Shown here: positions 16,140-53,377 of the stretch, in pieces | Position numbering within the stretch: the first letter of the stretch is position 1 | How the letters are laid out: every line of letters starts with the position of its first letter | Assembly: GCF_947486615.1 (NCBI RefSeq) | Contig: NZ_CANKUD010000014.1 | Location: forward strand, 1 to 64,000 | Direction: 5' to 3' | Length of the DNA stretch: 64,000 bases | DNA from: an uncultured Modestobacter sp. | GTDB taxonomy: Bacteria > Actinomycetota > Actinomycetes > Mycobacteriales > Geodermatophilaceae | The notes under the pieces: model-generated | What the model saw: the letters and a program-made list of their open reading frames with translations, nothing else | What the model was told of the DNA's origin: nothing | Database searches by the model: none | Program-made: the position numbers and the translations under genes

Positions 16140-16195
16140 AAGGACCCCGTCCCTCTCACCCCTCGCAAGCTCGGGGCGAGCCTCCGGACGGGGCC
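16140..16195 (+). repeat. 3'-end hairpin repeat, copy A (after ino1)
   Basis: Begins with AAGGACCCC directly after the ino1 stop codon. The outer arms are CCCCGTCC / GGACGGGG and an inner hairpin closes on the loop TCGCAAGCTC. It belongs to the six-copy family described in the findings and probably acts as or with a terminator. Confidence 0.75.
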
Positions 16196-16202
16196 GAAGG
16201 AA

Positions 16203-16239
16203 CCTGAGGGGCCCGAGCCGACGGCTCGGGCCCCTCAGG
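16203..16239. terminator. Strong terminator after ino1
   Basis: A perfect 17-bp stem (outer CCTGAGGGGC) with a 3-base GAC loop, followed by CGTTCCTCTT. It lies just past repeat copy A, so the ino1 3' end carries two hairpin structures in a row. Confidence 0.88.
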
Positions 16240-16248
16240 CGTTCCTCT

Positions 16249-16254
16249 TACCCT
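16249..16254 (+). promoter_or_regulatory. -10 element, leaderless lipoprotein start
   Basis: TACCCT ends 7 bp before the ATG at 16262, immediately after the ino1 terminator. No ribosome binding site is present. Confidence 0.45.
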
Positions 16255-16261
16255 GACCCCC

Positions 16262-17053
16262 ATGCGCTCCCGTCCTGGCACCCACCCGTTCCCGACCCCG
16301 CTGCGGGTCGCGGCCGCCGGAGTGCTGCTCGCCCTGCTCGCCCTGCTCAGCGGGTGCGGCAGCGAGGACGCCGAGCAGCGGGAGCCCGGGGCCGAGGTCA
16401 GCTCGGAGGAGGCCGAGGTGCTCAGCCAGGTGCTGTACGCCAACCGTCAGCAGGGCGGGGCCGACTTCGAGGTGACCGCGCCGTTCGCCGAGGGCGCCGT
16501 GCTCACCCTGACCGGCGAGGTCGACTTCGCCCGCGGGATCGGACGGGCCCAGGCGGTCACCAGCTACGGCGACGGCCGCCCCGACGACACCCGCACCCTC
16601 TTCTTCACCGAGGACGACCTCTGGCAGGGCGGCGTCCCCGGGCTCGACGAGGCGCTGACCGCCGCCGGCCTGCCCGCGGCCACCTACGTGCGCCGGCCGA
16701 TCGCGGCGACCGACGCGTCCGGGACGGCGTCACTGCTGGACGTGCTGGTGCAGATGGTGCCCCGGCTCTCCGCCCGCTCCGCCGACGACCCGCGGTCCTT
16801 CGCCGACTACACCTGGGTCGGCAGCCGATCGGTCAACGGGCAGCTCAGCTCGGTGTTCCAGAGCGGGACCGGCGCGCGGATAGCGGTCGCCGCGGACAGC
16901 AAGCTGCTGGTCCAGTACCTCACCCGGCTGCAGGACTTCGACGTGACCATCACCCTGGCCGACCATGGCGAGCGGGAGATCACCCTGCCGTCCGACGAGG
17001 ACACCGTCTCGCTGACCGAGCACCCGGAGATCGCCGCGGCGCTGGGCCTCTAG
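16262..17053 (+). CDS. Putative lipoprotein of unknown function
   Basis: A 263-residue protein with an N-terminal signal (RVAAAGVLLALLALLSGC) and a lipobox whose Cys would anchor it to the membrane. The mature part is rich in beta-type sequence and acidic residues, with no catalytic motif seen. It may resemble the LppX/LprG-like fold in size, but I cannot support that. It stands alone between two terminators and appears to have its own leaderless promoter. Confidence 0.8.
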   Translation: MRSRPGTHPFPTPLRVAAAGVLLALLALLSGCGSEDAEQREPGAEVSSEEAEVLSQVLYANRQQGGADFEVTAPFAEGAVLTLTGEVDFARGIGRAQAVTSYGDGRPDDTRTLFFTEDDLWQGGVPGLDEALTAAGLPAATYVRRPIAATDASGTASLLDVLVQMVPRLSARSADDPRSFADYTWVGSRSVNGQLSSVFQSGTGARIAVAADSKLLVQYLTRLQDFDVTITLADHGEREITLPSDEDTVSLTEHPEIAAALGL

Positions 17054-17077
17054 CCGGCAGCGGCGGGAGCCGGACAG

Positions 17078-17120
17078 CACAGGAGGGGGCGGCCTCTTCC
17101 CCAGGTCGCCCCCTCCTGTG
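17078..17120. terminator. Bidirectional terminator, lipoprotein / yqgE
   Basis: A 14-bp perfect stem, CACAGGAGGGGGCG / CGCCCCCTCCTGTG, with a 15-base loop, between the convergent lipoprotein and yqgE genes. Confidence 0.8.
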
Positions 17121-17180
17121 AGCTCTTCCTACCAGTCCGGAGCGCTCACCGGGAGTCGACACGCCCGACCGGTGACGGCC

Positions 17181-50848: not shown

Positions 50849-50850
50849 GG

Positions 50851-50906
50851 AAGGACCCCGTCCTCCCCACCCTTCGCGAGCTCGGGGTGAGCCTCGGGGC
50901 GGGGCC
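50851..50906 (+). repeat. 3'-end hairpin repeat, copy E (after permease)
   Basis: AAGGACCCCG begins 3 bp after the permease stop. Outer arms CCCCG (50856-50860) and CGGGG (50900-50904); inner loop TCGCGAGCTC closed by CACCC-type / GGGTG arms. Confidence 0.72.
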
Positions 50907-51074
50907 TGACCCTCGCCCCCTGACACCTCGGGGCCGGCCCGTGCGGGGGGCCGCCCAGGGCCCGGTGGGCGGCGTGTCGAGGAGAGGGGCAACACCGGTG
51001 GTGGCTCGAGTGTCGCGAGGGGCTCTCGCGCCGCGTCAGGGCGTCGGCGGCACACCTGGAGTGTGCCGACCCGG

Positions 51075-51080
51075 TACGAT
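51075..51080 (+). promoter_or_regulatory. Possible gyrB -10 element
   Basis: TACGAT, a good -10, about 109 bp upstream of the gyrB start. No convincing -35 was found at 16-19 bp. Confidence 0.4.
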
Positions 51081-51188
51081 GGAGGGGACACACCGCCAGC
51101 AGCCCCCTGAGAGCCGTCCTGCGCCGGTCGACGCCTGCCGTCGACGTGGTCGCGCCGGCTGAACGGCTGCGCAAGAGAAGGGCCCCAC

Positions 51189-53222
51189 GTGGTCGCTGCG
51201 CCCCAGAACGAGACCGCCTACTCCGGCAGCTCCATCACCGTCCTCGAGGGCCTGGAGGCGGTCCGCAAGCGCCCCGGCATGTACATCGGCTCGACCGGCG
51301 AGCGCGGCCTGCACCACATGGTGTGGGAGGTCGTGGACAACGCCGTCGACGAGCACCTGGCCGGCTACTGCGACACCGTGCGGGTCACCCTGCTGGCCGA
51401 CGGCGGGGTCCGGGTCGAGGACAACGGCCGTGGCATCCCGGTCGACATGCACCCGGTGGAGAAGCGCCCCACCGTCGAGGTCGTCCTGACCATCCTGCAC
51501 GCCGGCGGCAAGTTCGACGGCAAGAGCTACGGCGTCTCCGGCGGGCTGCACGGCGTCGGCGTCACCGTCGTCAACGCCCTGTCCACCACGCTGGACGTGA
51601 CCGTCTGGACCAAGGGCCGCGAGTGGCAGCAGCACTACGCCGAGGCCAAGCCCGGCCCGCTGCAGGAGGTCGGCCCGACCGACAAGCGCGGCACCTCGAT
51701 CACCTTCTGGGCCGACGGCTCGATCTTCGAGACGACGACCTACTCCTACGACACGATCAACCGGCGCCTGCAGGAGATGGCCTTCCTCAACAAGGGCCTG
51801 ACGATCATCCTGCGCGACGAGCGGCCCGGGCACAGCAAGGCCGAGAGCGGGGTCGGCGAGGAGTCCCTGGCCGAGTCGGCCGCGCCGGTCGAGGCCGAGG
51901 ACACGGCCTTCGAGCCGACCGAGGTGACCTACCGCTACGACGGCGGCCTGGTCGACTACGTCGCCTACATCAACCGCCGCAAGACCGCGATCCACCGCTC
52001 GGTCATCGGCTTCTCCGCCGACGGCGTGGGCAAGAACGACACCGCGATGTCGGTCGAGGTCGCCATGCAGTGGTCCGACGCCTACTCCGAGTCGGTGCAC
52101 ACCTTCGCGAACATCATCAACACCCACGAGGGCGGCACCCACGAGGAGGGCTTCCGCGCGGCGCTGACCTCCATCGTGAACAAGTACGCGGTGGACAAGA
52201 AGCTCCTCAAGGAGAAGGACGACAAGCTCACCGGCGACGACATCCGCGAGGGTCTCGCCGCGATCGTCTCGGTGAAGCTCGGCGACCCGCAGTTCGAGGG
52301 TCAGACGAAGACCAAGCTGGGCAACACCGAGGTCAAGGGCTTCGTGCAGCGGGTCTGCAACGAGCAGATCGGCCACTGGTTCGAGTCGAACCCGGCCGAG
52401 GCGAAGACGATCATCACCAAGGCCGCCTCGGCCGCCCGCGCCCGCCGCGCGGCGCAGGACGCCCGCAAGCTCGCCCGCAAGAACCTGCTCAGCGTCAGCG
52501 GCCTGCCGGGCAAGCTCGCCGACTGCCGCTCGACCGACCCGAGCCTCTCCGAGGTCTACATCGTCGAGGGCGACTCGGCCGGTGGCTCCGCGAAGTCCGG
52601 CCGGGACTCGATGTTCCAGGCGATCCTGCCCATCCGCGGCAAGATCATCAACGTCGAGAAGGCGCGCATCGACCGGGTGCTGAAGAACACCGAGGTCCAG
52701 TCGATGATCACCGCCTTCGGCACCGGCATCCACGACGAGTTCGACGTCACCAAGCTGCGCTATCACAAGATCGTGCTGATGGCCGACGCCGACGTCGACG
52801 GCCAGCACATCCGCACCCTGCTGCTGACCCTGCTGTTCCGCTTCATGCGCCCGCTGGTCGAGGCCGGCTACGTCTACCTGGCCCAGCCGCCGCTGTACAA
52901 GGTCAAGTGGGGCAACAAGCACGCGGACGACTACGTCTACACGGACAAGGAGCTGCAGGCGCTGCTCAAGGCCCGTGCCGACGAGGGCCGCAAGCTCCCC
53001 AAGGACGACGCCATCCAGCGGTTCAAGGGCTTGGGCGAGATGGACGCCAAGGAGCTGTGGGAGACCACGATGAACCCCGAGACCCGCATCCTGCTGCAGG
53101 TGACCCTGGAGGACGCCGCCGCCGCGGACGAGCTGTTCAGCGTGCTCATGGGCGAGGACGTCGTCGCCCGCCGCAGCTTCATCACCCGCAACGCCAAGGA
53201 CGTCCGCTTCCTCGACGTCTGA
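51189..53222 (+). CDS. gyrB: DNA gyrase subunit B
   Basis: A 677-residue GyrB, the ATPase half of gyrase, which introduces negative supercoils. The GHKL ATPase (about 1-220) has [13 protein letters not shown], the catalytic Glu segment, [14 protein letters not shown] and [14 protein letters not shown]; the transducer follows; and the TOPRIM domain has EGDSAGGSA (E460) and [15 protein letters not shown] short acidic insert at about 217-240 is unusual but mild. The GTG start at 51189 matches family N-termini. Repeat copy F is directly after the stop. Confidence 0.98.
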
Positions 53223-53224
53223 GG

Positions 53225-53282
53225 AAGGACCCCCTCGCCCCCCACCGCTCGCAGGCTCGCGGTGGGCCCCTGCGAGGGGGCC
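53225..53282 (+). repeat. 3'-end hairpin repeat, copy F (after gyrB)
   Basis: Outer arms CCCCCTCGC (53230-53238) and GCGAGGGGG (53272-53280) pair perfectly; the inner arms CCACCGC / GCGGTGG also pair perfectly with loop TCGCAGGCTC. A further copy of the right arm (CCTGCGAGGGGGCCGG) follows at about 53292-53307. Confidence 0.82.
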
Positions 53283-53377
53283 GGAAACGGCGCCTGCGAG
53301 GGGGCCGGCCCGCGGGTGGGCGCGCGTGAGCTGCGCACTCATCCACCACTGTGTATCGACTTGTGGAGAACCAGACC

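Follow-up and report, generated by a model that had tools for sequence, protein, structure and literature searches.

Repetitive extragenic palindromes (REPs) are short, imperfect, noncoding palindromes that occur in many copies per genome, in unidirectional or convergent gaps near gene 3' ends; they lie less than 20 bp from the gene, and GTAG REPs can furnish a TAG stop codon (PMC3733652, as excerpted). TnpAREP recognises a bulged stem (PMC8266576, as excerpted) and CGTC REPs are reported to be without a gene for a REP-associated tyrosine transposase (RAYT). Here we examine a palindromic repeat of about 56–60 nt that follows stop codons in the genome of an uncultured Modestobacter sp. (Geodermatophilaceae), starting from six copies in a 64,000-nt stretch of DNA (contig NZ_CANKUD010000014.1, positions 1 to 64,000; hereafter the window). 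All six begin with AAGGACC and lie on the plus strand, as do the genes that they follow, much as an earlier note on this DNA had described them, with the bounds of the second and third copies shifted by a few bases. A covariance model (R1) trained on four of the six recovers the two held-out copies, behind ino1 and a permease gene, at 60.0 and 46.5 bits, whereas the top non-member in the window scores 17.5 bits. Over the whole genome that contains the window, R1 yields at least 155 matches (E ≤ 1; 150 candidates scored). The working set used below comprises 155 copies of at least 44 bits, its agreement with the number of R1 matches being coincidental; the roughly 0.77 of 4.70 Mb examined was picked around copies and also supplied the background gene counts. 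We think it probable that this is a non-autonomous, REP-like palindromic repeat which has been spreading in Geodermatophilaceae at the DNA level and settles behind stop codons.

The repeat is like REPs in its copy number, palindromy, noncoding location and placement at gene 3' ends, and unlike them in its length (56–60 nt against 20–40), its exact placement at +2 from TGA and its better fold on the strand antisense to the gene. Integron attC sites, which are active as the folded bottom strand and carry RYYYAAC and GTTRRRY boxes, are likewise structured short sites 3' of a stop codon; attC R-box motifs are found in 0/155 copies, and the repeat is not to be counted among them. Mycobacterial interspersed repetitive units (MIRUs) insert at TGA-containing sites and are not known to have dyad symmetry. 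They are described as inserting at start codons, with a small open reading frame coupled to the neighbouring gene, and like the present repeats they are apparently mobile short actinobacterial repeats at a gene boundary (PMC12548453, as excerpted), but the elements studied here are hairpins behind stops with strong dyad symmetry and do not qualify as MIRUs. The target-site duplication that a miniature inverted-repeat element of a DDE transposon would leave was not detected: flanking direct repeats of 3–6 nt around the 155 copies are at chance level. Sixteen places outside the 155 copies where the 3' half recurs (from 100 of 109 listed, in part of the genome) were inspected for an autonomous long parent and none marks one; they represent copies that are nested, in tandem, shortened or additional, with at least one probable chance match (L397). 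No description of this repeat was recognised in literature searches, conducted outside full texts, on Geodermatophilus, Modestobacter/Blastococcus, Kineococcus and actinobacterial REPs (including PMC9686282, in part).

Placement behind stop codons

Gene calls were made with a codon-usage script. It was first trained on window genes, among them dnaN, gnd, gyrB and those for the exporter and the permease, and it recovers the stops of all five. The 5' neighbour of the 155 copies is a same-strand gene in 131 cases and an opposite-strand gene in 17, and the remaining seven copies overlap a called gene (148/155 clear of called genes). The genome search with a covariance model that the earlier note had proposed gives a marked enrichment behind stops: 122 of the 155 copies start −2 to +9 nt from a same-strand stop, compared with a mean of 29.8 and a maximum of 44 in 2000 runs in which 146 copies in two-sided gaps were randomly placed and oriented. 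The exact start at +2 accounts for 85 copies, every one of them preceded by TGA (85/85). Spacing follows the type of stop, with TGA at +2 in 85/105 cases, TAG at +3 in 7/12 and at 0 in four, and TAA at −2 in 3/5. Orientation is biased in same-direction gaps (69 sense copies vs 12 reversed), and eight of the 12 reversed copies have their other end within 7 nt of a stop. Among 120 copies in named records from the family, the 5' gene is same-strand in 88, opposite-strand in 19, overlapping in 10 and absent from the stretch in three; 74 copies lie within −2 to +9 of a stop and 41 at +2, 39 of these after TGA.

A simple CTGA target motif was rejected as the whole explanation of this placement, because non-stop CTGA is about as common and yet almost unused (443 noncoding CTGA outside stops vs 460 CTGA stops in the stretches examined; the TGA at −5 to −3 of copies is a called stop in 87 and lies elsewhere in one), and because TGA is missing from that place in the 17 copies whose 5' neighbour is an opposite-strand gene. 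A C precedes TGA in 95/105 linked genes vs 365/545 unlinked genes, an excess qualified by the generally C-richer third positions of linked genes. Convergent gaps are enriched (58:83 with the element vs 40:218 in the background, where gaps of 20 nt or more were counted). Once the element is removed, none of the 83 same-direction gaps is shorter than 10 nt, against 32% of 347 background gaps. Clustering behind genes is common among bacterial repeats, and its sharpness here, at +2 after TGA, makes it open to testing.

Paired arms and strand asymmetry

The earlier note had observed that the arms vary yet keep pairing, and had seen in this a sign of selected structure; both points are supported genome-wide by a gap-free covariation test on the 92 distinct copies of 58 nt (the 63 that differ in length were left out). 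Standard pairs fill 95% of pair cells, vs 43–52% when the 3' arm is slid by 1–3 positions, and double-sided changes number 212, vs 5–25 with a slid arm. When all column pairs are ranked by corrected mutual information, each of the top ten is a proposed base pair. The apical loop reads TCGC-NN-GCTC in 78/92 copies and the 3' internal loop NCCCT in 82/92 (55 CCCCT, 14 GCCCT and 13 ACCCT). Pairing of the loop with a CCCTG internal loop was considered and dropped, since the loop is variable and the internal loop nearly constant.

The two strands do not fold equally well. The antisense strand gives the better fold in 152/155 copies with RNA parameters (mean −37.9 vs −30.8 kcal/mol) and in 145/155 with DNA parameters, two being equal. 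Inner-stem columns 20/39 hold A.C in 67, G-C in 16 and A-T in five of the 92 copies, which read on the antisense strand as G.U, G-C and A-U; the bulged A of GGACC likewise becomes part of a G.U pair on that strand. With columns 20/39 counted, AC/CA cells outnumber GT/TG cells by 113 to 19. Folding and pair asymmetry together suggest that the antisense strand is the likelier working form. Such an asymmetry offers a simple computational test of whether a repeat works through the RNA of its gene or through the other strand.

Turnover, spread and competing explanations

Comparison of the same gene in relatives argues for REP-like mobile turnover: some have the element and some lack it, and where it occurs it can be reversed, nested or differ in loop type. 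Behind gyrB, the sequence extends to the 3' end at 19 of 20 loci; 14 of these have sense copies (four below 40 bits), two have reversed copies and three give no match, one of the three holding a visibly shortened copy. Loop types differ between species ~98% identical in gyrB. Behind gnd there is a match at 9/22 loci and a remnant at two more, one locus being misframed. At ino1, 20/21 loci could be read, and an intact sense copy next to the gene is confined to the genome of the window; among its relatives G004 has two reversed copies, G010 has one that is reversed and more distant, and the sense copy of G003 is degraded. Changes in presence, orientation and loop type are found at all three genes, also inside the clade with ~98% identical gyrB. 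Nesting is seen in the genome of the window (L198, L196, L228 and L176), behind gnd in G019 and in other family records.

R1 matches all 23 genomes of the genus and 102/112 genomes of Geodermatophilaceae (own genome included in both counts), in 9/12 genera, and 0/16 genomes from other families of the same order. Carriers among the matches listed by a pattern scan are Geodermatophilus, Blastococcus, Modestobacter, Klenkia and metagenome-assembled genomes labelled Frankiales. Exact matches were looked for in viral contigs, as a sign of phage carriage, and none was found. Some genomes within the family have 0, 1, 2 or 4 hits, against at least ~49 in most, and these element-poor genomes offer a route to finding the missing enzyme. 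At class level R1 matches 3/296 genomes: that of the window and, weakly, two of genus g34. With up to one mismatch allowed, the core CCCA-N4-TCGCANGCTC-N4-CGGGNCCCT has 96 occurrences in the genome of the window, vs 0 for the reversed pattern, and is found in 1/395 other genomes of a phylum sample (G129 of genus g34, six times). The second g34 genome, G382, has four weak R1 hits of 35–43 bits, three of them directly behind a same-strand stop (~5, 1 and −2 nt), where one of the genes ends like dnaN; a rough open-frame test puts 0/6 of the G129 cores close to a same-strand stop. On these matches the inner hairpin reaches another order, with stop linkage in one of two genomes, numbers too small for more and without effect on how the explanations below are weighed. 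Both g34 genomes have the inner hairpin of the present repeat between other outer arms (L387-L391, L399-L409).

In the reading that we favour, the repeat would settle directly behind stops, mostly TGA, at the ends of transcription units, a precision for which the reading gives no cause. It would work in folded form on the strand opposite the gene before it, with a predicted continuous outer helix, the inner-stem G.U pair, a GAGC-NN-GCGA loop and a purine-rich internal loop, and this folded strand may act as single-stranded DNA recognised by some enzyme. The element would be an extra passenger at the gene end, beside the gene's own terminator. That the hairpin is added rather than substituted is suggested by stem counts in gaps with the element masked, which are alike with and without it: stems of at least 8 bp occur in 15/36 convergent gaps with the element vs 16/35 without, and in 9/70 vs 30/177 same-direction gaps (gaps leaving 25–250 nt; shuffled values for element gaps were distorted by masking and went unused). 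Replacement of the native terminator by the element is unsupported on the same counts.

Several observations weigh against this reading. No mobilising gene was found, and the genes between neighbouring copies, judged by eye with no library search, are ordinary metabolic, ribosomal and regulatory genes of a housekeeping-like kind. No clean precise empty site was found among the sites compared; several 'empty' sites resemble decay remnants, gains are not polarised against losses, and a nested insertion costs the outer copy ~10 nt. Outside columns 20/39 and 23/36 the mismatch count falls to 25 AC/CA vs 17 GT/TG, so the strand asymmetry is concentrated at a few positions (two pairs, the bulge and the loop), and the folding data fit single-stranded DNA and antisense RNA alike. 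One form of mobility that we advance only tentatively is a DNA hairpin that inserts in a way linked to where translation or transcription ends, not to a DNA motif. It would read the stop position in both orientations, leave no target duplication, act as folded antisense-strand DNA and depend on a family of enzymes so far unconnected with repeats.

Hairpins formed by chance in high-GC DNA would fit the sense-strand folding of single window copies, which is only modestly better than that of shuffles (z −0.11 to −3.16), but they are refuted by the covariation and the copy number, and the recovery of held-out copies, the stop adjacency and the core motifs against their reversed pattern leave this explanation practically no weight. 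The strength of the case for real elements lies in copy number, covariation and position and not in single-copy folding. A sense RNA that stabilises the mRNA 3' end, slows translation or terminates the upstream transcript, a role suggested for E. coli REPs near stop codons, would agree with the orientation bias in same-direction gaps and with the distance from the stop, at most 15 nt being the reported mark of translation-lowering REPs (PMC12306157, as excerpted). We nonetheless consider it quite improbable: the sense strand is the worse fold, its A.C mismatches become pairs only on the opposite strand, a likely native hairpin persists behind ino1, and the ten bases after the stem show no U-rich tail in the gene's direction over the 155 copies (T fraction 0.11 sense vs 0.40 antisense), as an intrinsic terminator would have. 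With other hairpins equally frequent in element gaps and no U-rich tail, the element is probably not the upstream gene's terminator. The next gene starts within 40 nt of the element in 18/69 same-direction gaps, and the terminator or transcript-end stabiliser that the earlier note had offered as possible roles finds no support.

The same T fractions, together with the stronger antisense fold and the enrichment of convergent gaps, could instead mark a terminator or roadblock that faces the antisense direction, in which a strong GC hairpin, with UCCUUCNUCA after it, would stop antisense or convergent transcription exactly where the gene ends and be kept there by selection. This is unlikely, if less so than a role in sense RNA, since TCCTT makes a weak U-tract, presence varies among close species and the exact +2 spacing is left unexplained; a scan of 42900-53700 gave no terminator-like site at five copies, although with loops of 3–8 only it may miss the hairpin. 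A true REP moved by a RAYT-type (Y1) transposase, missed or since lost, would account for a REP-like copy number, palindromy and 3'-end placement (PMC3733652, as excerpted), and G stands at both −4 and −1 before AAGGACC in 106/155 copies. The exact GTAG tag at −4 to −1 is, however, present in only 2/155 copies, and PF01797 matches 0/23 genomes in a search confined to the genus, with a control that matches 5/14 known genomes. In 11/155 copies CGTC is present no more than 8 nt 5' of the folded strand, and in 0/155 it is present 5' of the sense strand. We regard this alternative as very unlikely. Of the mobile REP-like family suggested in the earlier note, the REP-like turnover at orthologous sites stands and formal REP membership, by tag and Y1 transposase, does not.

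The six copies and their surroundings

The copies that follow lie on the plus strand. A 56-nt copy of the shorter outer-arm type (16140..16195, held out from R1 training) starts directly after the ino1 TAG (16137-16139, distance 0), and a long perfect hairpin plus CGTTCCTCTT at 16203..16249, also on the plus strand, is by eye likely the native terminator-like hairpin of ino1, retained 3' of the element; similar hairpins follow ino1, again by eye, in most element-free relatives. The end of ino1 at 16120-16140 (GGCGACTAG) is unlike that of the relatives examined, mostly GAGCGC plus TGA, and with this difference in last codons and stop the insertion may have altered the gene end. A 60-nt copy (43309..43368) lies at +2 from the dnaN TGA (43304-43306), and one of 58 nt (44476..44533) at +2 from the gnd TGA, with the recF start 29 nt beyond. 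At the gnd 3' site, element-free relatives (L088-L093) have other long perfect palindromes, CCTCCACCAAAATGGCCATTTTGGTGGAGG-like or GGCCAAAGTCGCGACTTTGGCC, and behind gnd in L096 and L097 there are tandem repeats of the element's 3' half plus GTTCCAGCACGTCACC or similar.

The 58-nt copy at 49248..49305 starts at −2 and overlaps the TAA of the ABC exporter gene (49247-49249), a stop codon that had been noted as part of the element. A 56-nt copy (50851..50906, the second held-out copy) is at +2 from the permease TGA, and the last, of 58 nt (53225..53282), at +2 from the gyrB TGA, preceding a gene called at 53363 (gyrA by position). NCBIfam cut-offs are passed by ino1, dnaN, the 6-phosphogluconate dehydrogenase gene gnd and gyrB; the ABC exporter and the APC-type permease have strong transporter-family matches, yet fall under curated NCBIfam cut-offs. 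Rfam at gathering scores finds two tRNAs and nothing else in the whole window, and zero matches up to E 5 at the gyrB copy. A tRNA-Gly called by ARAGORN at 46462-46551 on the minus strand has no Rfam support, overlaps a called gene and is probably false. A parS-like GTTCCACGTGGAAC lies at 49344-49357 in the gap between exporter and permease, and is retained in relatives beside an empty element site.

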